From Labrenzia sp. R4_2 (GTDB lineage: Bacteria > Pseudomonadota > Alphaproteobacteria > Rhizobiales > Stappiaceae): DNA of 64,000 nt. Under the pieces are notes generated by a model that worked only from the letters and a program-made list of their open reading frames with translations, was not told the origin of the DNA and did not search any database. The stretch is from contig NZ_JAGHRJ010000003.1 of assembly GCF_017743865.1 (NCBI RefSeq), positions 248,001 through 312,000 of the forward strand, given 5' to 3'. The translations under genes were made by a program, and so were the position numbers. Of this stretch, positions 21,614-33,654 are shown piece after piece (position 1 is the stretch's first letter; each line of letters opens with the position of its first letter).

Positions 21614-23446
21614 TTAGCGCGCTTCGACGGGTTCAGGTTCGGCGGCAGCTGTCGGCAAGTCTTGCGACTGAAACTCGGTCCCTCTGCCTTTCTGCAAAGC
21701 CGGCAGTTGAAGCTGCAGCAACTCGGCAGGAGGCGCGGTCTCCTCGGGGATCCGCCAGAGTGTGGACCGGATTGCCAAGGTGCCTAGCGTTTTCGTCGAG
21801 GTCATAACGGCCAGTATCGTGGCAAGCAGTGGCCCCACCGCGACAGGGATGACCGGCCAAACCAGATCAATGGGTTGCTGAACGATCCAGACAAGGCCAG
21901 CTGCACCGAAAAGGGTCTGCGGCCAGAGTTTGGAAGCGACTAGCAAGACCGGCAAGCGAGCAACACCACGTGCTTGCGCACCCCAACCAATAGATTTTCC
22001 GAAAGCAAGACCAGCCATGAAGACGGTGTGAGCAACCGCCATGATTGGCGCAAGCATGGCCGCATAGACGATCTCAGCCATCACGCTGAGCAGTATTCGG
22101 ATGGGGCCGCCAAACGCTTTTCGAAGATCCGTGCGTGCAATGATATCCGCGACAGTTGCCAGCTTCGGTGCAAAAACCATTGTCAGCACGGAGAAAAACA
22201 AAACAGCGCCGGTATCCGCCCGATAAGGAGCGTAATCCGTGGTCATTCCAAGGGTTGCAGCCCCCACCATAAATCCGATCCAGGCGGGTGACCCGAGAAA
22301 CATTAGGATGGCGAGCACCAACTGGGCACGGCTAACGGGTTTAAGGCCCTTGAGACCGAGCAGTTTACGGTACTGCAAATTGCCCTGGCACCAGCGAAGA
22401 TCGCGGCGGATGAACTCTAAGAGATGTGGCGGATTGGCCTCATAACTCCCGTTTTCCTGCGGCAGGACACGGACTTCATATCCGGCGCGGCGCATCAGAA
22501 CAGCCTCGACTTGGTCATGCGACAAAACCGGACCGCTCAACGGGCCTGTTCCAGGTAGAACTGGCAGCTTGCAATGCTCCTTGAACGGCTTTAGCCGCAG
22601 GATGGCATTGTGCCCCCAGTAGGGCCCACAATCTCCCTGCCACCATGCACTGCCGATCGTGTAGGAGCGCATTCCAAGACGCATCCCAAACTGGAAAACC
22701 CGTGCAAAGGCGCTGTCTGTCGGCAGCCCAACCACGAGGCTTTGAAGGATACCGATCTGCGGATTGACTTCCATGCGCCGGACCAGATCGATGATCGCTG
22801 AGGCGGACATGTAGCTGTCCGCATCCAGGACGATCGCAAACTCGTGACGACCTCCCCAACGTTCGCAAAAATCTTCGATATTGCCAGCTTTGAACGCGGT
22901 GTTTTCAGACCGGCGCCGATAAACGACGTCCATTTGCCCAGAAAAACGGGCAGACAGCCGTGCCGACATTTGCTGTTCTTGCTGCGCTGTTTCGTCCCGG
23001 GACGTATCGCTCAAAACATAGAGCGTAAAGTTATGGCCGGAGCCTGCGCGGATCAGATTGCTGGCCATCGCGGTGAGATTGGTCTCCAGCGCGTCGACGT
23101 CCTCATCCTTGATACAGGAGAGGAGCGCTGTTGAGCTGGAGATCGATTGAGACGCATCTCCTGGGGCAATCGGGCATACTGCTGCGACAGGATCCTTGGA
23201 AAGCCGCATGACCAAAAGACCGATCACAGCGTTCCAAAAACCGATAATGGTCCATGGAAGTGTGACCATGAAACAGCCAAGGATGAAGAAGTCCAAGGGC
23301 GTGTGACCGCCCGGAGATAACGTCACGAACATTAATGCTGACAAGGCAACGAAACTTGCCGCCAACAGGAAGGCGAACAGAACCCTGCGGCCGGTCATGG
23401 ACGTTTTGGACAATGCCGGATTAGGTTTATCAATGACTTGCAACAT
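21614..23446 (-). CDS. opgH: glucan glucosyltransferase OpgH (MdoH)
   Basis: The 610-residue polytopic inner-membrane GT2 enzyme shows two N-terminal transmembrane segments, the donor-binding LDADSYMS, the acceptor-region ARRAGYEVRV-like MRRAGYEVRVLPQ, the processivity motif RRDLRWCQGNLQ, and C-terminal membrane helices. OpgH polymerises UDP-glucose into periplasmic glucans. The ATG at 23446 follows GGAAG at ten bases; the open frame to 23524 is not supported. The usual partner opgG is not adjacent. Confidence 0.92.
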   Translation of the reverse strand: MLQVIDKPNPALSKTSMTGRRVLFAFLLAASFVALSALMFVTLSPGGHTPLDFFILGCFMVTLPWTIIGFWNAVIGLLVMRLSKDPVAAVCPIAPGDASQSISSSTALLSCIKDEDVDALETNLTAMASNLIRAGSGHNFTLYVLSDTSRDETAQQEQQMSARLSARFSGQMDVVYRRRSENTAFKAGNIEDFCERWGGRHEFAIVLDADSYMSASAIIDLVRRMEVNPQIGILQSLVVGLPTDSAFARVFQFGMRLGMRSYTIGSAWWQGDCGPYWGHNAILRLKPFKEHCKLPVLPGTGPLSGPVLSHDQVEAVLMRRAGYEVRVLPQENGSYEANPPHLLEFIRRDLRWCQGNLQYRKLLGLKGLKPVSRAQLVLAILMFLGSPAWIGFMVGAATLGMTTDYAPYRADTGAVLFFSVLTMVFAPKLATVADIIARTDLRKAFGGPIRILLSVMAEIVYAAMLAPIMAVAHTVFMAGLAFGKSIGWGAQARGVARLPVLLVASKLWPQTLFGAAGLVWIVQQPIDLVWPVIPVAVGPLLATILAVMTSTKTLGTLAIRSTLWRIPEETAPPAELLQLQLPALQKGRGTEFQSQDLPTAAAEPEPVEAR

Positions 23447-23543
23447 TTTTCGGACTTCCAATCCTTGCAAACATGGCATGAATGGGCGTAGCGATAAGTG
23501 GATGTGGTGGCAAAAGCGTGTCACGGTTCGGAGAAACTGCAGA

Positions 23544-24557
23544 ATGCCAACTCCCCCTAAAGAAGCTGATCTCCATGAAGCTCATGCCGTTTGGTATGTC
23601 GGCGGCGGTGGGTGTGCGGTTAGGCCGGCTGCGCTCTCGCATCCGCAACCGGGAGAGGTTCTGATCAAAGCCTTGAACAGTGCGATCAGCCGGGGAACCG
23701 AAGGGCTTGTGCTCCGCGGTGCGGTTCCGGAAACAGAATGGCATCGCATGCGTGCGCCTTTTCAGGAGGGGCAGTTTCCCTTCCCGGTGAAATACGGTTA
23801 CGCCAGCGTTGGAACCGTTGTTGACGGAGACGCTGAACTTGCAGGTAAGCTCGTGTTTTCGCTCTTTCCGCATCAAGATCTCTACACTCTCCCGTCGGAT
23901 GCCTGTGTCCCTGTGCCTGCTTCCATTCCGGCCGAGCGGGCGACGCTTGCCGCCAATTTAGAAACCGCTCTCAATGCTTTATGGGATGGAAAACCATCAC
24001 CTGGGGATCACATCTGCGTGGTCGGCGGCGGTGTCGTCGGGCTTCTGACAGCTTACGTGTGCAACCGTATCCCCGGATCAACGGTGACTTTGGTGGATAT
24101 CAATCCGGGTCGCGCTGAGATCGCATCCGGCCTTGGTTTTCGTTTCAGCCTTCCAGGGGATGCGCCGCGAGACCAGGACCTCGTGTTCCACACAAGTGCG
24201 AGCGCCGCCGGGCTGAAAACGGCGCTTTCGAGCGCCGGTGACGGCGCCTCGGTCATTGAAATGAGCTGGTATGGCGATTTGACCGTCGGGGTGCCACTCG
24301 GAGCTGATTTTCATAGCCGCCGGATCAAATTGATCTCAAGCCAAGTGGGCACAATTCCGGCCGAACGGCAGGCGCGCTGGACTTACCGGCGGCGAATGGA
24401 ATTGGCGCTTTCTCTACTGGATGATCCACGTCTGGATCTTCTGATCAGTCACAAAATCCCATTTGAAGACGCGGCAGTGCGCGTTCCCGAAATATTGAAC
24501 AAGGCATCAGATGTCTTGGCTGCGGTCATCGTTTATGACCAAGCCGACGAGGCGTGA
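23544..24557 (+). CDS. BchC-like medium-chain dehydrogenase (cluster gene 1)
   Basis: The 337-residue MDR-superfamily oxidoreductase has a GroES-like N-terminal domain and a Rossmann motif VVGGGVVGLL at 159-168. Where classical alcohol dehydrogenases carry the catalytic-zinc cysteine (GxCGTD), it has NSAISRGTEGL (46-55), as do BchC-type bacteriochlorophyllide dehydrogenases, so it is probably zinc-free at that site. No chlorophyll genes are in the window. The ATG at 23544 follows GGAG at ten bases. It leads a four-gene plus-strand cluster, divergent from opgH, with a PTPS-like protein, a glycosyltransferase and a methyltransferase. Likely role: oxidation or reduction of a side-chain hydroxyl of the cluster's product (inference). 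Confidence 0.82.
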   Translation: MPTPPKEADLHEAHAVWYVGGGGCAVRPAALSHPQPGEVLIKALNSAISRGTEGLVLRGAVPETEWHRMRAPFQEGQFPFPVKYGYASVGTVVDGDAELAGKLVFSLFPHQDLYTLPSDACVPVPASIPAERATLAANLETALNALWDGKPSPGDHICVVGGGVVGLLTAYVCNRIPGSTVTLVDINPGRAEIASGLGFRFSLPGDAPRDQDLVFHTSASAAGLKTALSSAGDGASVIEMSWYGDLTVGVPLGADFHSRRIKLISSQVGTIPAERQARWTYRRRMELALSLLDDPRLDLLISHKIPFEDAAVRVPEILNKASDVLAAVIVYDQADEA

Positions 24558-24597
24558 TGCCAGCTTGGCAGAAAACTCAGGAACTTAGGAATATAAT

Positions 24598-24996
24598 ATG
24601 TTTGCTGTAGAAGTTCGCGATCACGTGATGATTGCCCACTCCTTTAAAGGGGAACTATTTGGTCCGGCACAGGCGCTGCACGGAGCGACGTTTGTCATAG
24701 ACGCGGCCTTTTTGTCAGAAGAACTCGATGAAAACGGTGTTGTGATCGATATCGGCCGGGCGCATGAAGCGCTCAAGGAAGTGCTGGCGCCGCTCAACTA
24801 CAAGAACCTTGACGAGGTGCCCGAGTTCGCCGGGATCAATACGACCACAGAATTCCTGACCAAGCACATTCATGACCATCTGGCCGAAGCTGCGCGGCAA
24901 GACCGGCTTGGCCGCAAGGGCGGCGAGCTTGCGTCCATCCGGGTGACGATCTCCGAATCCCATGTTGCCCGTGCGTGGTACGAGGCAAAGATCTGA
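24598..24996 (+). CDS. degenerate 6-pyruvoyltetrahydropterin synthase/QueD-like protein (cluster gene 2)
   Basis: The 132-residue protein has the PTPS (T-fold) length and layout: the first zinc histidine His14 (MIAHSF), the second at His28, the IDIGRA strand, a PEF segment and the pterin-anchoring Glu120 (VTISES). However, the HGH zinc pair reads HGA (Ala30), the upstream catalytic cysteine is absent (GPAQALHG), and the catalytic Asp-His pair of LDHxxLN is Asn67-Tyr68 (LNYKNLD). It is therefore unlikely to perform the classical PTPS or QueD reaction. It may bind a pterin or catalyse a different step. It lies one base before the glycosyltransferase start. Confidence 0.82.
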   Translation: MFAVEVRDHVMIAHSFKGELFGPAQALHGATFVIDAAFLSEELDENGVVIDIGRAHEALKEVLAPLNYKNLDEVPEFAGINTTTEFLTKHIHDHLAEAARQDRLGRKGGELASIRVTISESHVARAWYEAKI

Positions 24997-24997
24997 C

Positions 24998-26056
24998 ATG
25001 CCGGACAAACGGCTTGTGTTTGCCTATCCCGGTGATCTGGAAACGCTCACGGGCGGATACGGGTATGACCGGCGCGTGATTGCCGGTCTTGCTGCCAACG
25101 GATGGGATGTAAGGCCGCTGTCGCTTGGATCGGGGTTTCCTTTCCCATCAGGAAAGACTCTACAGGCCGTTGACGCATCTCTTTCTGCTCTCCCGGACGA
25201 TACTGTGGTCATTGTCGATGGCTTGGCCTACGGCGTTATGGATCAGGCGGCTGAAAAGCACGGCAAGAGACTGAGGCTGATCGCCCTTGTTCACCACCCG
25301 CTCTGCCGGGAAAATGGCTTGCCCAGCGACGTCGCCGCGCGGCTGCAAGCCAGCGAAAGCGCGGCTCTCAGTCATGCCCGTCATGTGATCGTGACAAGTC
25401 CGGCGACGGCCGTTCAAATCGAGGACCTGTTCGGGATCTCAATGGATGCGATCAGTACTGCTCTTCCGGGCACGGAGCTTCCCGCACAGGGGCGTAAAGC
25501 GTCAGAAGGTGCAACGCGGCTCTTGTCCATCGGAACCGTGACACAAAGGAAAGGTTACGATCTTCTCTTTGAGGCGCTCAGCCAGGTGAAAGAGATGGAT
25601 TGGCATCTCGATGTCGTTGGCGGACTAGAGGCGGATCCGGGCTGTGTCACGGCCTTAAAGGAACAGATTAAAAGTCTGGAGCTGACCGGCCGCGTCACGT
25701 TCCATGGGGCGGTACCGCAGGAACAGCTTAGCGATTACTACTGCTCGGCGGACACTTTCGTTCTGGCGAGCCGCTTTGAGGGGTACGGCATGGCCTATGC
25801 GGAAGCGCTGGCGCATGGTTTGCCGGTGATCGGCAGCGGTGCTGGAGCGGTTAAGGACACCCTCTCGGTCGGCGGGGCGATCTATTGCGGCGTGGAAGAT
25901 GTGCAGGCTTTAACCGCTGCCCTTACCAATGTCATATCTAATGCCGAGGCCCGGAAACGCCTTGCCACAGACGCCAGACAGGCCGCTCATTCCTTGCCAA
26001 GCTGGGAGGACGCGGTGAGGGTTTTCGAGACAGTCATAGAAAAGGTGATGCAGTGA
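24998..26056 (+). CDS. GT4-type glycosyltransferase (cluster gene 3)
   Basis: The 352-residue GT-B enzyme has an N-terminal domain with GGYGYDRRVIAGLAANGWDV, a linker, and a C-terminal donor domain with LLSIGTVTQRKGYDLL and the E-x7-E motif EGYGMAYAEALAHGLPV. This is the GT4 retaining family, using nucleotide sugars, and it is cytoplasmic with no membrane helix. The ATG at 24998 lies directly after the PTPS-like stop. Its stop overlaps the methyltransferase GTG (26053-26056). Given the company, its acceptor may be a pterin or similar small molecule rather than a polysaccharide (inference). Confidence 0.88.
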   Translation: MPDKRLVFAYPGDLETLTGGYGYDRRVIAGLAANGWDVRPLSLGSGFPFPSGKTLQAVDASLSALPDDTVVIVDGLAYGVMDQAAEKHGKRLRLIALVHHPLCRENGLPSDVAARLQASESAALSHARHVIVTSPATAVQIEDLFGISMDAISTALPGTELPAQGRKASEGATRLLSIGTVTQRKGYDLLFEALSQVKEMDWHLDVVGGLEADPGCVTALKEQIKSLELTGRVTFHGAVPQEQLSDYYCSADTFVLASRFEGYGMAYAEALAHGLPVIGSGAGAVKDTLSVGGAIYCGVEDVQALTAALTNVISNAEARKRLATDARQAAHSLPSWEDAVRVFETVIEKVMQ

Positions 26057-26847
26057 GCGGTTTCTCAGCAACGTGGCTGGCATTACGCGAGCCTCTGGAC
26101 CTTGCGGCCCGCAATAAAGAGGTCGAGGCAGCCTTCTTCGAGGCGTTGCCGGCTGAAGCCCCAAAAATTCTCGACCTTGCGAGCGGTGCCGGCTCGACGG
26201 TTACAGCTTTGGCAGGAGAAAAATCGGACATCCAGTGGACTTTGTCCGACTATGATGCCGATCTTCTGTCGGTCGCGGCCAGCCGCAAATTTGCGACCCG
26301 GCCAGCGTCGCTTCAGACGCGGGAAATCGATCTTGCGGCAAACCTCATGGAACTCCCGTTTGACGCGGTCGATGCGATCACGACATCTGCATTCCTCGAT
26401 CTCGTTTCGGAAACATTTCTGACGCAACTTGTCGAAGCAATCGTCTTATCCAGAAAGCCGTTTCTTGCCAGCCTGACTTATGATGGCCGGACTGGTTTCA
26501 GCCCTGCTGAACCGTTGGATCAGGATCTCTGTGATGCGATGAACCGTGACCAGCAGACCGACAAGGGGTTTGGTCCGGCGCTGGGCCCCAGGGCTGCCGA
26601 ACGGGCAATAGCCCTCTTTCAGGCTAAGGGATACAGGATTGTCAGCGGTGAATCCGATTGGGTCATTGGCCCGCAGCATGAGGATTTTCTGGCGGCATTC
26701 CTGCCCGGTTGGATTGGCGCTGGCATCAAGCAGGGCGTTGAGAAAACCAGGGCTGATGATTGGCTGGAAAGCCGCCGCTCGCAGATCGCGGACGGCACGT
26801 TCGCTATGACAGTTGGCCATCTGGATTTTGTCGCGCTGCCCGCCTGA
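26053..26847 (+). CDS. class I SAM-dependent methyltransferase (cluster gene 4)
   Basis: The 264-residue protein has a class I motif I (ILDLASGAGSTV) at about 37-48, an acidic motif II (TLSDYDADLL), and a motif IV-like DAITTSAFLDLVSE. The GTG start at 26053 overlaps the glycosyltransferase stop (GTGA), so translation is coupled. The substrate is unknown; presumably it methylates the product or an intermediate of this cluster. Its 3' end is 15 bases from a convergent GH5 gene. Confidence 0.85.
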   Translation: MSGFSATWLALREPLDLAARNKEVEAAFFEALPAEAPKILDLASGAGSTVTALAGEKSDIQWTLSDYDADLLSVAASRKFATRPASLQTREIDLAANLMELPFDAVDAITTSAFLDLVSETFLTQLVEAIVLSRKPFLASLTYDGRTGFSPAEPLDQDLCDAMNRDQQTDKGFGPALGPRAAERAIALFQAKGYRIVSGESDWVIGPQHEDFLAAFLPGWIGAGIKQGVEKTRADDWLESRRSQIADGTFAMTVGHLDFVALPA

Positions 26848-28052: not shown

Positions 28053-28808
28053 TCAGGTGTTTAGAAACTTGTCGGTCCAGTCGAGCAAGTCGTTGACCGT
28101 AGCTGCAGTATCCGTTGACGGCAGTTCGGGCCGGTCCACTATTATGACCGGGAGCTGCATCTGCCGCGCGGCCTCGATTTTTGCATAGGCTCGCGTTCCG
28201 CCGCTGTTCTTGGTCACCACGTGGGTAATGCCTTTTTCTTGGAACAGCTCGACTTCTTCTTCAGCCGATTGGGGCGGACGCGAGAGCACGAGCGACCAGT
28301 GGTCCGGCAAGGGAGCGGGAGGTGGTTCGATCATCCGGGCGGTGCCGATGATATCGCCGCGCCGGTAAAACGTTGCGATTTCCTTTCGACCGACAGCCAG
28401 AAAGGCCCGAGCCCCGTCGGGAATGGCATCGGCGGCGTTATCCATGGAGGCGACTGGGTTCCAAAGATCATTCGGTGCCTGCTGCCATACAGGTCGCTCG
28501 AACCTGAGGATCGCAACGTCCTCACGCTCCGCCGCATGGAAGGCGTTCCAGCTCATTTGAGCTGCGAACGGGTGTGTTGCATCGATGGTGAGCGAAACCT
28601 TCTCGGTCTGAAGGTATTGGCAAAGCCCCTCAATGCCGCCAAACCCGCCAATGCGCGTTGGAACACCAAGATCCGGCAAGTCTTTCACGGCACCCGCGAA
28701 GGACGCTGTCAGGCGAACAGCTCGAAACCTTTCCTGGAGTTTTTTTGCAAGCACGCGGGCCTCAAAGGTCCCGGCCAGCAGCAGGATGTGCGGTTGATCA
28801 GCCGTCAA
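28053..28808 (-). CDS. cobK: precorrin-6A reductase CobK
   Basis: The roughly 251-residue NAD(P)H-dependent reductase of the corrin pathway has ILLLAGTFEARVLAKKL at the N-terminus, RIGGFGGIEGLCQYL, a TIDATHPFA motif and VTKNSGG near the C-terminus, all typical of CobK/CbiJ. The frame has no ATG start. I chose the TTG at 28808 because GGGGAG lies seven bases upstream; a TTG at 28823 is the alternative. It overlaps the end of cbiD, so the pair is coupled. Confidence 0.9.
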   Translation of the reverse strand: MTADQPHILLLAGTFEARVLAKKLQERFRAVRLTASFAGAVKDLPDLGVPTRIGGFGGIEGLCQYLQTEKVSLTIDATHPFAAQMSWNAFHAAEREDVAILRFERPVWQQAPNDLWNPVASMDNAADAIPDGARAFLAVGRKEIATFYRRGDIIGTARMIEPPPAPLPDHWSLVLSRPPQSAEEEVELFQEKGITHVVTKNSGGTRAYAKIEAARQMQLPVIIVDRPELPSTDTAATVNDLLDWTDKFLNT

Positions 28809-29892
28809 ATCCGCACTCCCCAATGATGTTGCCCTGGCGGTCTACGATTATGACTTCCACGTCGACGGGCGCATCACGCAGAACTGTTCTAACTGCTGTC
28901 TTCGCGCGCCTTGCAAGGGGGGCGCTCAGATTGATCCCCTCTGCAGCCGCCATATCGAGTACTTCCTTCGCCGTATTCGATGTTCCAGCATGGGTGATGA
29001 GGCTGGTTGGGGCGTCGGCCTCACGAAGCAAGTCCTGAAGGAACTCAAAACTGACCGAGCTCCGGGCCGAGTGCAGGTCGAGCGCGCCTTGGGCAAGCTT
29101 GGTGAACTTGGCAAAGCCCCCGGCCATGGTGATTTTCGGGACCGGGTGACTGCGCAGGTATTTCAGGAGCCCGCCGGCAAAATCGCCCATGTCGAGATAG
29201 GCGCTGTCGTCGAGGTCATGACGGGATTGCACGGCCTTTTCCGACATATAGCCTGTTGCGCCCACGACATGCTCAAGCCCGGTTGCACGCGCGACATCGA
29301 TCCCGCGATGGATGGATGCGATCCACGCTGCGCAGGAGAACGGGCGCACGATCCCGGTTGTTCCGAGGACCGACAATCCGCCAACGATGCCAAGGCGCGG
29401 GTTCATGGTTTTCAAAGCCAATTCCTCGCCGCCGGCAATCGAGATTTCGATCTCGACATCGCCTGTGCCGCCGCAAAGGCAGGTCACTTCCTCAATGGCT
29501 GTTTGCAACATCTGACGGGGCACCGGATTGATTGCTGGTTCACCCGGCGGGATCGGTAAGCCGGGTCGCGTAACGGTGCCAACCCCTGCCCCGGCCTTGA
29601 ACTGGACACCGCTTCCCTCTGGCAGAAGCCTGACAGTTGACGTGATTTCGGCGCCATGGGTCACATCCGGATCATCGCCCGCATCTTTGGTAATCGTGGC
29701 TAAGCTGCATCCGTCAGCCAATGCGTGGCGGGTCAGAACGAAGTCCGTGGTTCTGCCTTGCGGTAAGGTTATCTCGACCGGATCCGGAAACGTACCCGTG
29801 AGCAAAGCCTGGTAGGCAGCCTTCGCCGCCGCCGTGGCACATGCCCCCGTCGTCCAGCCGCGCCGCAATTCTTTGCCGTCAGGTCTGACCAT
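28798..29892 (-). CDS. cbiD: cobalt-precorrin-5B C1-methyltransferase CbiD
   Basis: The 364-residue SAM-dependent enzyme starts with the CbiD signature RRGWTTGACATAAAKAAY and has a GAGVGTVTRPGLPIPPGEPA segment and IVGGLSVLGTTGIVRPFS. It methylates C1 after deacylation, the role taken by CobF in the classical aerobic pathway. Its presence next to cobK is one sign that this locus is not the Pseudomonas denitrificans-type set. It is divergent from cobA with a 120-base gap. Confidence 0.95.
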   Translation of the reverse strand: MVRPDGKELRRGWTTGACATAAAKAAYQALLTGTFPDPVEITLPQGRTTDFVLTRHALADGCSLATITKDAGDDPDVTHGAEITSTVRLLPEGSGVQFKAGAGVGTVTRPGLPIPPGEPAINPVPRQMLQTAIEEVTCLCGGTGDVEIEISIAGGEELALKTMNPRLGIVGGLSVLGTTGIVRPFSCAAWIASIHRGIDVARATGLEHVVGATGYMSEKAVQSRHDLDDSAYLDMGDFAGGLLKYLRSHPVPKITMAGGFAKFTKLAQGALDLHSARSSVSFEFLQDLLREADAPTSLITHAGTSNTAKEVLDMAAAEGINLSAPLARRAKTAVRTVLRDAPVDVEVIIVDRQGNIIGECGFDG

Positions 29893-30012
29893 GAAATGTC
29901 TATAACCGAGTTTTTCAAAAATGCGCAGATCGAGAGATGAAATGTCGCATTCGGAGAGCTTTATACCGGCGGAGGACTTGGCGCTTTTCTATCCCCGCTG
30001 TAAACAGGATTC

Positions 30013-30879
30013 ATGCAGTCTGAACAACACCTGACATTGCCTGCGCAATCCTTACCGGAATTTGAAGCCGGATGGGTCTGGCTGGCCGGAGCGGGGCCCG
30101 GGGATCCCGGCCTTTTGACGCTGCACGCCGTCAATGGGCTTCGGCAGGCGGACGTGGTTGTTTATGACGCGCTTGTGGATCAGAGCATCCTGAGCTGGGC
30201 AAGGCCTGGAGCTGTGCTCGATTATGCGGGCAAACGCGGTGGCAAGCCGAGCCCTAAACAGCGGGACATCACCCTCAAACTCATCGACTATGCGCGGGCC
30301 GGCAAGCGTGTCTTGCGCCTTAAAGGCGGCGATCCCTTTGTCTTCGGGCGAGGCGGGGAAGAAGCGCTCGGACTTGTCGAGGCCGGGGTTCATTTCCGGA
30401 TCATTCCAGGCATTACCGCAGGGATTGGCGGGCTGGCCTATGCCGGGATCCCGGCGACCCACCGGGATTGCAATCAAGCTGTGACGTTTCTTACCGGACA
30501 CGATCAGACCGGCCTAACGCCGGATGCAATCAACTGGGACGGCATCGCCCAAGGGTCCCCAGTCATCGTGATGTACATGGCAATGAAACATCTTGAGACA
30601 ATCGCCGGCAAACTGATTGCCGGTGGACGCTCGGTGGATGAGCCTGTGGGCATCGTGTGCAACGGGTCCTTAGCCGGGCAAGAAGTTCTGGAGACGACAC
30701 TCGGAAACTGCGCAGAAGAAGCAAAGCGCGCTGGTCTCAGCCCACCCGCCATTGTATGTGTTGGTGAAGTTGTCCGTTTGCGCGCTGGGCTCGACTGGCT
30801 GGGCGCCCTGTCTGGGAAGGTTCTGACACCCGATCCACTTGGGCTGCGCGAAGCGACCCGACATGCCGATGCAGGTTAA
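30013..30879 (+). CDS. cobA: uroporphyrinogen-III C-methyltransferase CobA
   Basis: The 288-residue SUMT has VWLAGAGPGDPGLLTLHAV (SAM pocket), VVVYDALVD, RLKGGDPFVFGRGGEE and PGITAGIGGLAYAGIP. It makes precorrin-2, the branch point to cobalamin and sirohaem. There is no CysG-type dehydrogenase/ferrochelatase fusion. Its end overlaps the start of cobB by 17 bases. Confidence 0.95.
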   Translation: MQSEQHLTLPAQSLPEFEAGWVWLAGAGPGDPGLLTLHAVNGLRQADVVVYDALVDQSILSWARPGAVLDYAGKRGGKPSPKQRDITLKLIDYARAGKRVLRLKGGDPFVFGRGGEEALGLVEAGVHFRIIPGITAGIGGLAYAGIPATHRDCNQAVTFLTGHDQTGLTPDAINWDGIAQGSPVIVMYMAMKHLETIAGKLIAGGRSVDEPVGIVCNGSLAGQEVLETTLGNCAEEAKRAGLSPPAIVCVGEVVRLRAGLDWLGALSGKVLTPDPLGLREATRHADAG

Positions 30880-32206
30880 TTCAGACGGACCGAAGGGAAT
30901 TTTGATCGCTGCGCCGTCTTCCGGCGCTGGCAAGACGACCGTGACACTGGCCTTGCTGCGGGCTTTAAAGAACGCGGGCCATTCCGTTGTTTCGGCAAAA
31001 TCCGGACCCGATTACATCGATCCCAAGTTCCATGAAGCTGCAAGTGGCACGTCCTGCCTCAACCTCGATGCCTGGGCGATGGGTGAGGGCACCTTGCAAA
31101 CGCTTGCGGGTTCCCACGCTGCTGGACACGATCTTTTGATTGCCGAAGGGGCCATGGGCCTGTTCGATGGCGCTGCAAATGGCAAGGGATCAGCTGCGGA
31201 CCTGGCAAGTGCACTCCAGCTCCCGGTGGTGTTGGTTGTCGATTGTGCGAAACAGGCGCAGTCGGTTGCTGCTCTCGTCAGTGGCTTCAAACACTTCCGG
31301 TCCGATGTGCGGCTGACGGGTGTCATTCTTAATCGTGTCGGCAGTGCCCGCCATGAAGAGATGCTGCGGGCAGCCCTGAACGGGCTCGATATTGAAGTCC
31401 TTGGGGCTATCCCGCGCAAGAGCGATTTGATTCTGCCGGAACGCCATCTCGGCTTGGTTCAGGCTCAAGAACATCCAGAACTGGACGCTTTTCTGGACGC
31501 AGCGGCGCGCATTTGTGAAGATCATCTAGATCTCGATGGAATTCGAACGCTGGCGCAAACCATTGCCACGCCTGATGATGAAGTGCGCCAACTTCCATCA
31601 CCTCTTGGACAACGGATCTCGGTTGCCAGGGACATCGCCTTCGCATTTTCTTACATTCACCTGCTGGACCATTGGCGGCGCATGGGGGCGGAGATTTCGT
31701 TCTTCTCGCCGCTCGCCAACGAAGTGCCGAGGTCTGATGCCGACGCGATCTATCTACCGGGCGGATATCCCGAACTCCATGCCGGCAAACTCTCAGAGGC
31801 GCAAACCTTCGTTTCCGGGGTACAAGCAGCGGCTGAAAACGGCGCGCTGATCTATGGCGAATGCGGCGGCTACATGATCTTGGGTGACATGCTGGTGGAC
31901 GCAGATGGTTGCCGGCAGAAAATGCTTGGGCTTTTGCCACTGGAAACGTCGTTCCAAACCCGCAAACGGCACCTCGGCTATCGGATTGTCACTCCAAAAA
32001 CTGGTGCGCCATGGTCAGGTTCGCTGGCAGCACACGAGTTTCACTATGCCAGTGTTGTGAGTGAGGGCGCCGTCGATGGGCTGTTTTCGGCAAGCGATGC
32101 GTCCGGGAACGGCTTGCCCGACATGGGGCTGCGCGTAAACAACGTGATGGGGTCGTTTGCGCATGTGATTTCACGCCATCAAACGACTTCCAGCACGCAG
32201 AGCTGA
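30863..32206 (+). CDS. cobB: cobyrinate / hydrogenobyrinate a,c-diamide synthase CobB
   Basis: The 447-residue amidotransferase has an N-terminal dethiobiotin-synthetase-like ATP domain (APSSGAGKTTVTLAL; SGPDYIDPKFH) and a C-terminal class I glutamine amidotransferase domain (YLPGGYPELHAG, nucleophile Cys in YGECGGYMILG, then a HLGYR segment). Sequence alone does not tell whether it acts on cobyrinic acid (CbiA use) or hydrogenobyrinic acid (CobB use). The ATG at 30863 overlaps cobA; its 3' end overlaps the convergent methyltransferase by 28 bases. Confidence 0.93.
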   Translation: MPMQVNSDGPKGILIAAPSSGAGKTTVTLALLRALKNAGHSVVSAKSGPDYIDPKFHEAASGTSCLNLDAWAMGEGTLQTLAGSHAAGHDLLIAEGAMGLFDGAANGKGSAADLASALQLPVVLVVDCAKQAQSVAALVSGFKHFRSDVRLTGVILNRVGSARHEEMLRAALNGLDIEVLGAIPRKSDLILPERHLGLVQAQEHPELDAFLDAAARICEDHLDLDGIRTLAQTIATPDDEVRQLPSPLGQRISVARDIAFAFSYIHLLDHWRRMGAEISFFSPLANEVPRSDADAIYLPGGYPELHAGKLSEAQTFVSGVQAAAENGALIYGECGGYMILGDMLVDADGCRQKMLGLLPLETSFQTRKRHLGYRIVTPKTGAPWSGSLAAHEFHYASVVSEGAVDGLFSASDASGNGLPDMGLRVNNVMGSFAHVISRHQTTSSTQS

Positions 32207-32808
32207 CAGAAAACGTCTTCCTTTGTGTGATACGGGCTGAGCTGGATATCGACAATCCGCACCGCTCCATCATTTTCAAGCTTCTCGATCTTCTGCGCAA
32301 AGCCGTCAGTGTCCCATGTGGTGTCCCGCACCGTGAAGACGATTGGAGCACCGGGCTTGGCAATCCGGATCAGTGCATCAAGGCCGTCTGGTCCGACATG
32401 GCCGCTGGTAAACACGCCCGCGCTGACAATGCCATCATAACTGTCGTCGTCGATCTCATGCAGCGGGCCGCACATGTCGGCTTCATTCAGTTTCCGATAA
32501 GCGCCGCTTTTACGCGACGCAGCCAGCATTTCCGGCGTGAGGTCAATCCCGTCGATGGTCAGCTTATAGTCAAGCTTCAAAAGGTCCAGCCCAACGAGTC
32601 CGGTGCCGCAACCTGCATCCAGTACCAAATTGCCGTCACCCAGATGCCGGACCAAAGTCTCAGCAGCGACTTGCGGAGCGACATAACCGATCGCAAGCAG
32701 GAGATCCGTGTCGTAGGTCTGCACCCAGTTGGCATAGAACTCCCGGATCGCGAGAGGGTCACCGTTCAACGACAGCGCATGTTCCAGAAGCGGATTTCGT
32801 TCAGCCAT
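32179..32808 (-). CDS. class I SAM-dependent methyltransferase in the cob locus
   Basis: The 209-residue protein has motif I LVLDAGCGTGLVGLDLL, an IDGIDLTPEML motif II and VFTSGHVGPDGLDALI. The fold is that of small-molecule methyltransferases with a WBSCR27-like C-terminus. It does not resemble any corrin-ring methyltransferase, which belong to the tetrapyrrole methylase fold. It lies 72 bases downstream of cobM on the same strand and may be cotranscribed, but a role in B12 synthesis is unproven. Confidence 0.83.
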   Translation of the reverse strand: MAERNPLLEHALSLNGDPLAIREFYANWVQTYDTDLLLAIGYVAPQVAAETLVRHLGDGNLVLDAGCGTGLVGLDLLKLDYKLTIDGIDLTPEMLAASRKSGAYRKLNEADMCGPLHEIDDDSYDGIVSAGVFTSGHVGPDGLDALIRIAKPGAPIVFTVRDTTWDTDGFAQKIEKLENDGAVRIVDIQLSPYHTKEDVFCQLCVLEVV

Positions 32809-32880
32809 GCGGCGTCTCCCGTCAAATGTTCCTAAAGAAAACTACGGGATCAGCGTGGTGAAAGGCAATTGTCGAAGCGC

Positions 32881-33654
32881 TTAGCCTTTGGCCTTTTTCT
32901 TCGGTCGTAGGACATGCACGTGATCTGCATCGTACAGCGCGCTGTCTCTGAAGTCCTGACCGGGCTTCAAGGCGTGACCAACGAAGATCAACGCAGTGCG
33001 TGTGATCTTTGCTGCCCGTACCTTTTCCGCAATCGTAGACAACGTTCCGTGAATGAAGGCTTCGTCCGGCCATCCGACACGATAAGCAATGATCACAGGG
33101 CAATCTGCACCGTAATGTGGCGCAAGTTGCCGCTCGACTTCGCGCAGGTTCCGGATGGACAGGTGGATTGCAAGCGTTGCGCCGCTTTTTCCAAGCGTGT
33201 CGAGATCCTCGTTGTTTGGCATTGCCGAGGATTTCATAGCCGTGCGGGTCACAATTACGGTTTGCGCGACTTCGGGTATAGTGAGTTCAGTTTTCAACGC
33301 TGCGGCTGCCGCGGCAAAGGCCGGGACGCCTGGCGTCACATCATAGTCGATGCCGAACGCTTCCAGGCGGCGCATCTGTTCGGCCGTCGCGCCGTAGATC
33401 GATGGATCGCCGGAGTGGACACGGGCCACATCCTGGCCGTTCTCATGGGCGGTCTGGATCTCAGCAATAATCTCGTCGAGGGTCATAGGCGCCGTGTCGA
33501 TCACCCGCGCGCCTTCCGGCGCTGCGGCGACTATCTGTTCCGGCACCAACGAGCCTGCATAAAGGCAGACCGGGCAGTTCTGAATGAGCCTCAAGCCACG
33601 AACGGTGATGAGATCCGGATCGCCGGGACCGGCGCCAATGAAGTGAACGGTCAT
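32881..33654 (-). CDS. cobM: precorrin-4 C11-methyltransferase CobM
   Basis: The 257-residue tetrapyrrole methylase has VHFIGAGPGDPDLITVRGLR, CLYAGSLVPEQIV and HSGDPSIYGATAEQMRRLE, and the family-typical AIHLSIRNLREVE. It methylates C11. Its ATG overlaps the stop of the preceding cbiG-cobJ gene (ATGA at 33651-33654). The C-terminus is basic (RPKKKAKG). Confidence 0.95.
   Translation of the reverse strand: MTVHFIGAGPGDPDLITVRGLRLIQNCPVCLYAGSLVPEQIVAAAPEGARVIDTAPMTLDEIIAEIQTAHENGQDVARVHSGDPSIYGATAEQMRRLEAFGIDYDVTPGVPAFAAAAAALKTELTIPEVAQTVIVTRTAMKSSAMPNNEDLDTLGKSGATLAIHLSIRNLREVERQLAPHYGADCPVIIAYRVGWPDEAFIHGTLSTIAEKVRAAKITRTALIFVGHALKPGQDFRDSALYDADHVHVLRPKKKAKG

Follow-up and report, generated by a model that had tools for sequence, protein, structure and literature searches.

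What do four closely packed genes in Labrenzia sp. R4_2, at positions 23,544 to 26,847 of the stretch analysed here, make? The stretch (below, the window) comprises 64,000 nucleotides of contig NZ_JAGHRJ010000003.1, and the genes encode a medium-chain dehydrogenase/reductase (MDR), a protein with the fold of 6-pyruvoyltetrahydropterin synthase (PTPS), a glycosyltransferase of family GT4 and a class I methyltransferase. A reading of the sequence alone, hereafter the original prediction, had proposed that they build a methylated, glycosylated pterin or a related small molecule. Having followed this up computationally, we conclude, with a probability of roughly 0.6, that the four genes are central to a conserved pathway, hitherto uncharacterised, which would turn GTP into a glycosylated, methylated pterin-type compound for use in the cell envelope. 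New here are the family-wide gene set, a likely diaminopyrimidine origin of the compound, the inactive PTPS, its link to SCO6650, and an envelope gene that travels with the core. Among the open-licence papers listed by literature searches, none was recognised as describing this gene set.

A conserved four-gene core

Re-reading of the open reading frames (ORFs) confirmed the tight packing of the four plus-strand genes, with spacings of 40 and 1 bases followed by a 4-base GTGA overlap. A promoter and terminator scan gave no signal exceeding chance. With the window PTPS (24598..24996, 132 amino acids) as query, 41 of 61 genomes of relatives gave a match with E no higher than 2.4e-37, and 42 did so at a threshold of E 0.001; in the class, counting the window's own genome, the figures were 36 of 289 genomes with E no higher than 1.9e-30 and 42 at the threshold of 0.001. 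A profile of 24 PTPS sequences, applied at 1e-20, was positive in 27 of 398 phylum genomes and in 43 of 296 genomes of an actinobacterial class, namely the one containing an Actinomycetospora metagenome-assembled genome (MAG). A further draw, from named genomes, took the best 80 of at least 586 confirmed loci, and the closest named relatives of the window among the matches listed were Roseibium.

The ORFs of the 80 named-genome loci and the window were clustered, the main families were turned into profiles, and 161 loci were searched; removal of the duplicates L282 and L297 left 159 loci, 132 of which span at least 15 kb (long loci). The class draw comprised 29 loci fetched wide from the 35 strong PTPS genomes beside the window's own, and the actinobacterial draw 20 of the 43 positive genomes, hand-picked mostly for long contigs. 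Eighteen loci made up the phylum set; four more from the same draw (L302 to L305) were counted only in the total, and L301 belongs to the class set as well as to the phylum set. Score cut-offs for presence were our own choice. Since the profiles were built from the 80 named-genome loci and the window, there is some circularity in the counts for these 80; the class, phylum and actinobacterial draws took no part in profile building.

Of the 132 long loci, 112 contain all four core families, and the gene order is kept across phyla. In 131 of the 151 loci holding both genes, MDR precedes PTPS on the same strand at a distance of up to 300 bases; the same holds for PTPS and GT4 in 120 of 153 loci and for GT4 and methyltransferase in 80 of 132, the betaproteobacterial loci carrying the methyltransferase on the other side of an opgH gene. 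Twenty control stretches of about 20 kb (19 at arbitrary places in PTPS-holding genomes and one around the queD of the window genome) gave no match over the cut-offs for the 11 module profiles, with one cytochrome b561 under its cut-off. Given the conserved order and the clean controls, chance adjacency was dropped as an explanation.

Plasmid-borne loci illustrate the module in RefSeq's own names. That of Streptomyces fungicidicus combines a CDP-alcohol transferase, MDR, PTPS, GT4, methyltransferase, creatininase and ribA; Methylosinus trichosporium OB3b has mdoH, MDR, PTPS, GT4, a hypothetical protein and a RibD family protein; and Palleronia has GT4, inositol monophosphatase, ribA, MDR, PTPS, methyltransferase and a RibD family protein. 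On the Rhizobium sp. SL42 plasmid the four genes stand with a sulfatase, LPG-synthase TM, CDP-alcohol transferase, ribA, a RibD family protein and cytochrome b, and on that of Thiodictyon with cytochrome b, a RibD family protein and a CDP-alcohol transferase.

Three loci are unusual. On a Streptomyces anthocyanicus plasmid (L378, NZ_CP109572.1 154011-174394) the PTPS gene lies by genes for MEKHLA-domain and cupin proteins and none of the other core genes is annotated there, which speaks against a conserved module at that locus. Two have odd hosts by their record titles, a Gemmatimonadetes MAG (L133) and a MAG labelled Bordetella parapertussis (L083), with PTPS proteins 60% and 71% identical to the window's; these are either mislabelled bins or cases of transfer.

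The PTPS-like protein has lost catalytic residues

Assignment of the second core protein to the PTPS fold held (PF01242, E 2e-22, 79.9 bits against a cut-off of 22.4). Its residues, read in the register of PDB alignments, depart from those of an active enzyme. In 160 of 161 module sequences Ala replaces the catalytic Cys, and in the remaining one Gly does; the zinc ligands His14 and His28 are present in all 161, but Ala likewise replaces the second HxH His in every one. The Asp-His pair is mostly replaced as well, position 67 being Asn in 119 sequences and Asp in 7, and position 68 Tyr in 142 and His in 1; the window protein reads Asn-Tyr. The pocket residues Glu85 and Glu120 occur in 161 of 161 sequences and Thr84 in 159. 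On the strength of known PTPS structures, we take Thr84 and Glu120 to be the pterin anchor.

By far the closest solved structure to the PTPS profile is 3D7J, that of SCO6650 from Streptomyces coelicolor (E 1e-60 over 129 columns; next match 1e-6). Its motif reads FGPAQRLHGAT, so that the module proteins have the residue losses of the SCO6650 type in common. SCO6650 itself reportedly lacks the zinc and the triad and retains a pterin-like pocket (work of Spoonamore, Bandarian and co-workers, 2006 and 2008).

On these residues, the module protein is neither a QueD nor a PTPS enzyme. RefSeq names the plasmid homologues 6-carboxytetrahydropterin synthase, as would be expected if the gene were an ordinary queD or a tetrahydrobiopterin or folate gene with unrelated neighbours, but this is highly improbable: the window protein scores 37.8 bits against TIGR03367 (QueD; cut-off 89.25), the catalytic Cys and one zinc His have become Ala in the module sequences, and a QueD of its own, with intact CxxxHGH and DH motifs, is encoded elsewhere in the window genome among ORFs that by eye resemble QueC, QueE and QueF. 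With the curated cut-offs unreached and the catalytic residues gone, the QueD and tetrahydrobiopterin labels were dropped.

Precursor genes near the core

The original prediction held that GTP cyclohydrolase-like genes near the core would support a pterin. GTP cyclohydrolase II and/or a RibD-type reductase (RibD_C) is encoded in 99 of the 132 long loci, which agrees with this expectation for the family; the window genome has no dedicated copy. The genes point to cyclohydrolase II chemistry, and a route through cyclohydrolase I is not backed. By draw, one or both genes are found in 55/80 named-genome, 18/20 actinobacterial, 16/18 phylum and 22/29 class loci. One representative of each was typed, as GTP_cyclohydro2 and as a RibD_C protein of 268 amino acids with no deaminase match; a reductase of this kind would leave the 2-amino group in place.

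The cyclohydrolases of the clusters keep three zinc Cys in 68 of 68 sequences. At the position matching Tyr105 of the E. coli enzyme, 54 have Tyr, 11 Met, 2 His and 1 Gln, and all 14 non-Tyr proteins belong to the actinobacterial set. A creatininase-family gene accompanies each of these 14 (263 to 450 bits) and none of the four actinobacterial Tyr loci. SCO6655, the GTP cyclohydrolase II homologue in the cluster of SCO6650, is said, in the work of Spoonamore, Bandarian and co-workers, to have Met for this Tyr and to stop at a formyl intermediate. The 2006 paper of that series is cited in PMC3509567, and SCO6655 is also named in PMC2853524. PMC9478397 describes BrbF, of the creatininase family, and archaeal ArfB as deformylating the formyl intermediate to 2,5-diamino-6-ribosylamino-4(3H)-pyrimidinone 5'-phosphate (DARPP). 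The coupling of non-Tyr cyclohydrolase and creatininase is expected if the module needs DARPP, and it likely points to a diaminopyrimidine intermediate.

Supply genes are missing beside the cluster in the window's own lineage. A profile search found neither RibD_C nor cyclohydrolase II there in the window or in five Roseibium loci (L060 to L064), so dedicated copies were either lost or never present; a genome of the window's genus (G014, locus L334) has RibD_C beside its cluster.

The same genes could serve a GTP-derived product other than a pterin, such as a ribityl- or ribosyl-diaminopyrimidine, a lumazine or an azapteridine-like compound, comparable to the products of the toxoflavin and pseudoiodinine clusters. 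Loss of the PTPS triad permits other chemistry in the pocket; against this, Thr84 and Glu120, presumably the pterin anchor, are kept. The pseudoiodinine cluster encodes GTP cyclohydrolase II-like, RibD-like and methyltransferase proteins (PMC9911603), but the seven genes listed for it include no PTPS or GT4 and do include WD-40 and sulphatase-modifying-factor proteins. We regard a non-pterin product as distinctly doubtful.

The glycosyltransferase, dehydrogenase and methyltransferase

The third core protein (24998..26056, plus strand, 352 amino acids) is a GT4 enzyme as originally described (PF00534, E 8e-28, 97.5 bits against a cut-off of 26.4). Its model has a predicted local distance difference test (pLDDT) score of 95, and its top fold matches are retaining GT-B enzymes, the best being methylmannose polysaccharide mannosyltransferase, sucrose-phosphate synthase, MshA and BshA, with SenB lower. 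Its structural relatives thus include glycosyltransferases of small molecules (sucrose-phosphate synthase, MshA, BshA and SenB); BGluT was not recognised among the GT4 matches listed.

Matches of the first protein (23544..24557, plus strand, 337 amino acids from the ATG at 23544, with an upstream in-frame ATG at 23397 as alternative start) to MDR families are weak in NCBIfam and PDB, and two NAD/FAD-binding Pfam models both fall under cut-off. It had been called BchC-like, and a distant likeness stands, but membership does not (TIGR01202, 40.7 bits against a cut-off of 291.25); as the curated cut-off was far from reached, the BchC label was dropped. The module MDR proteins have no fully conserved Cys, the best column holding Cys in 101 of 153 sequences, which makes a classical catalytic zinc unlikely.

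The fourth gene (26053..26847, plus strand, GTG start, 264 amino acids) encodes an S-adenosylmethionine-dependent methyltransferase whose class I fold was confirmed by fold search, with Pfam Methyltransf_25 at E 9e-5, under its cut-off. The fold search returned ordinary class I enzymes and no clue to the substrate.

Two types of membrane partner

Divergent from the operon lies a gene for an OpgH-type (MdoH) membrane glucosyltransferase (21614..23524, minus strand); its translation may in fact begin further in, at an ATG near 23446. It matches NCBIfam MdoH models with up to 673 bits and is the sole OpgH match in the window genome, where a profile search found no MdoG (OpgG). OpgH of the window type, defined by our threshold of more than 600 bits against NF003963, is present in 38 of the 61 relatives, and in 37 of these 38 the PTPS gene shares its contig and lies no more than about 3 kb away. 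The exception, a genome of the same genus in 560 contigs (G001), has a module-type OpgH (G001:C364:646-2346) and no PTPS match was found in it, probably owing to an assembly gap. Four genomes with a strong PTPS match and no window-type OpgH (G014, G015, G021 and G029) belong to a second type, with a CDP-alcohol phosphatidyltransferase (L334 to L337).

Ninety-four OpgH sequences were placed in a tree with the E. coli protein as root. In it, 71 module-linked sequences, the window's among them, fall with those of L285 and L299 under one node of support 1.0. Outside it are 21 sequences, 19 of which are copies away from the module; the other two come from module loci (L293 and L298). The node of the 71 alone has a low support of 0.315, since the OpgH proteins of L285 and L299, likewise encoded close to the module, branch immediately outside it. 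Nine OpgH proteins, betaproteobacterial by record title, branch from within the alphaproteobacterial ones (support 0.98 for the group and 0.94 above it), and the betaproteobacterial core genes are likewise nested in alphaproteobacteria (0.967 and 0.919). Seven of these nine genomes were searched, and each has a single OpgH match, the module copy. The matching placement suggests that OpgH and the core most likely moved together. On the core tree, presence of OpgH requires 14 changes, against a mean of 48 in 200 label shuffles. Judged by tree and distribution, OpgH is co-inherited with the window-type module.

OpgH exceeds its cut-off in 54/80 named-genome, 0/20 actinobacterial, 4/18 phylum and 8/29 class loci. 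It is divergent from the MDR gene and within 600 bases of it in 59 of the 71 loci that hold the two, as is the CDP-alcohol transferase in 32 of the 51 that hold it with MDR; one locus only, in the four sets, has both OpgH and the transferase. Frequent additions in the CDP-alcohol type are UPF0104 and a gene of the sulfatase family, which we label phosphoglycerol-transferase-like (its Pfam match lies just under cut-off).

Co-inheritance raises the question whether the module instead makes a periplasmic glucan of the osmoregulated periplasmic glucan (OPG) type, OpgH building the backbone, the GT4, methyltransferase and MDR proteins making or modifying a substituent of the glycan, and the PTPS-like protein binding a nucleotide or sugar. 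The distribution among relatives and the shared betaproteobacterial nesting fit this reading, as do MdoG-like genes within 8.5 kb of the PTPS gene in six loci (one member confirmed with Pfam), the sulfatase-family and UPF0104 neighbours of the CDP-alcohol type, and the best NCBIfam models of the GT4 protein, which are exopolysaccharide glycosyltransferases, under cut-off. Much of the module is however without OpgH, and neither RibD_C nor cyclohydrolase II is known to take part in making glucans. Of the 38 genomes that carry window-type OpgH, 24, the window's own included, gave no MdoG match, which argues against standard OPG synthesis; a second OpgH, where present, can adjoin MdoG (G017). We hold glucan synthesis to be unlikely.

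A YceI-like periplasmic protein is encoded within 8.5 kb of the PTPS gene in 11 loci, including L119, L134 and L138 (one member Pfam-confirmed).

A proposed pathway and its weak points

In the pterin pathway that we favour, GTP would be opened by GTP cyclohydrolase II to DARPP, and a RibD-type reductase lacking the deaminase would convert the ribose into a ribityl chain while keeping the 2-amino group that a pterin needs. The MDR enzyme might then oxidise a side-chain hydroxyl, and ring closure between the resulting ketone and the 5-amino group, inside the pocket of the PTPS-like protein, might give a dihydropterin. GT4 would add a sugar and the methyltransferase a methyl group, and the glycoside might finally be passed at the membrane to the OpgH-type glucan synthase in the window type, or to the CDP-alcohol phosphatidyltransferase in the other. 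What was observed is the gene set and its conservation, the loss of the PTPS catalytic residues, the coupling of cyclohydrolase and creatininase, and the joint inheritance with OpgH. Opening, reduction, glycosylation and methylation are predicted as reaction types from the protein families; the exact chemistry of ring closure and the whole of the membrane step are speculative. With no dedicated copies in the window genome, its housekeeping RibBA and RibD would have to serve the first two steps.

Several findings weigh against this pathway. The gravest, for the window, is the absence of supply genes: its genome has a single RibD_C (a 393-amino-acid frame) and a single cyclohydrolase II (a 449-amino-acid frame), which by size look like housekeeping RibD and RibBA. 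Neither gene is nearby in 33 of the 132 long loci, and 27 of the 132 have neither OpgH nor CDP-alcohol phosphatidyltransferase over the cut-offs (105 have one or the other). With its catalytic triad gone, a cyclase role for the PTPS-like protein is a guess. Enzymes acting on lipopolysaccharide, exopolysaccharide and proteins also appear in the GT4 fold list, and EpsE, an exopolysaccharide glycosyltransferase, is among the best NCBIfam models at 97.9 bits (cut-off 400); with small-molecule, polysaccharide and protein enzymes mixed among the relatives, homology does not settle the acceptor. Creatininase matches of lower score (56 to 89 bits) occur in 11 of the 50 Tyr loci outside the actinobacterial set and in six loci without a cluster cyclohydrolase (60 to 93 bits), and the typed Streptomyces creatininase is nearer MftE (141 bits) than ArfB (37 bits), both under cut-off. 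The loci are related, so the counts are not independent. Finally, we know of no product, substrate or mutant for the module.

The original inference of a methylated, glycosylated pterin thus stands in part. The gene order kept across phyla, the cyclohydrolase II and RibD_C genes and the small-molecule relatives of the glycosyltransferase favour it; the PTPS without catalytic residues and the lack of dedicated supply genes in the window do not. It had been thought vulnerable to two observations, a lack of conservation and a glycosyltransferase that groups with polysaccharide enzymes. The order proved to be conserved, and the second was borne out in part, in the frequent and co-inherited OpgH-type synthase and in EpsE-like best models that the GT4 protein matches far under cut-off.

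A more specific form of the proposal is a pterin displayed on the envelope, made by a cyclohydrolase II route independent of FolE. OpgH-type synthase would extend the glycoside into an exported glucan conjugate in the window's lineage, or the CDP-alcohol transferase and UPF0104 would make a lipid-anchored form, with cytochrome b561 as redox partner in many proteobacteria. Cytochrome b561 is encoded nearby in 28/80 named-genome, 4/18 phylum, 7/29 class and 0/20 actinobacterial loci. This version is tentative and, as a whole, rather unlikely.

If the general proposal is true, bacteria from actinobacteria to Roseibium-like, Polynucleobacter-like and methanotrophic ones would share a hitherto unidentified pterin-type metabolite made by riboflavin-style chemistry. 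A PTPS family annotated as QueD, the extra RibA and RibD_C genes, and a second OpgH family often without OpgG would each acquire a role.

Neighbouring genes

Convergent with the methyltransferase gene, and ending 16 bases past it, lies a gene for a GH5 cellulase-family protein (PF00150, 26863-27969, minus strand). It belongs to no family present in at least 4 of the 81 clustered loci; the protein could conceivably cut a glucan made by OpgH. A cobalamin-type run follows at 28053-33654, with CobK-, CbiD-, CobA-, CobB- and CobM-like ORFs recognised by eye only. In five other loci (L062, L063, L064, L086 and L097) a small phosphopantetheine carrier protein (PF00550, one member typed) is encoded to the right of the cluster. 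Its neighbour looks, by eye, like a class II tRNA synthetase, and such a pairing is seen in amino acid:carrier-protein ligase systems.

Comparison with known systems

Cyanobacterial pterin glycosides, such as cyanopterin, are made with FolE and an active PTPS, and their glycosyltransferases include the tetrahydrobiopterin glucosyltransferase BGluT. The likeness to our module lies in a glycosyltransferase and, in cyanopterin, a methylated sugar on the pterin, and the difference in FolE and the active PTPS.

The SCO6650/SCO6655 system of S. coelicolor is linked to the module by the match of the PTPS profile to 3D7J, and its gene content is compared through the S. fungicidicus plasmid. In the window type, OpgH stands where that cluster has the CDP-alcohol transferase, and the four genes are not flanked by a cyclohydrolase, reductase or creatininase of their own.

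With OpgGH the window shares an OpgH that matches MdoH models, but the module OpgH stands apart in the tree from the 19 non-module copies, and the window genome is without an OpgG match.

PMC9911603 compares the pseudoiodinine cluster with that of toxoflavin. Both resemble the module in using cyclohydrolase II-like and RibD-like proteins and methyltransferases outside riboflavin synthesis (PMC9911603); the pseudoiodinine cluster differs in that the seven genes listed there include, besides no PTPS or GT4, no MDR or OpgH.

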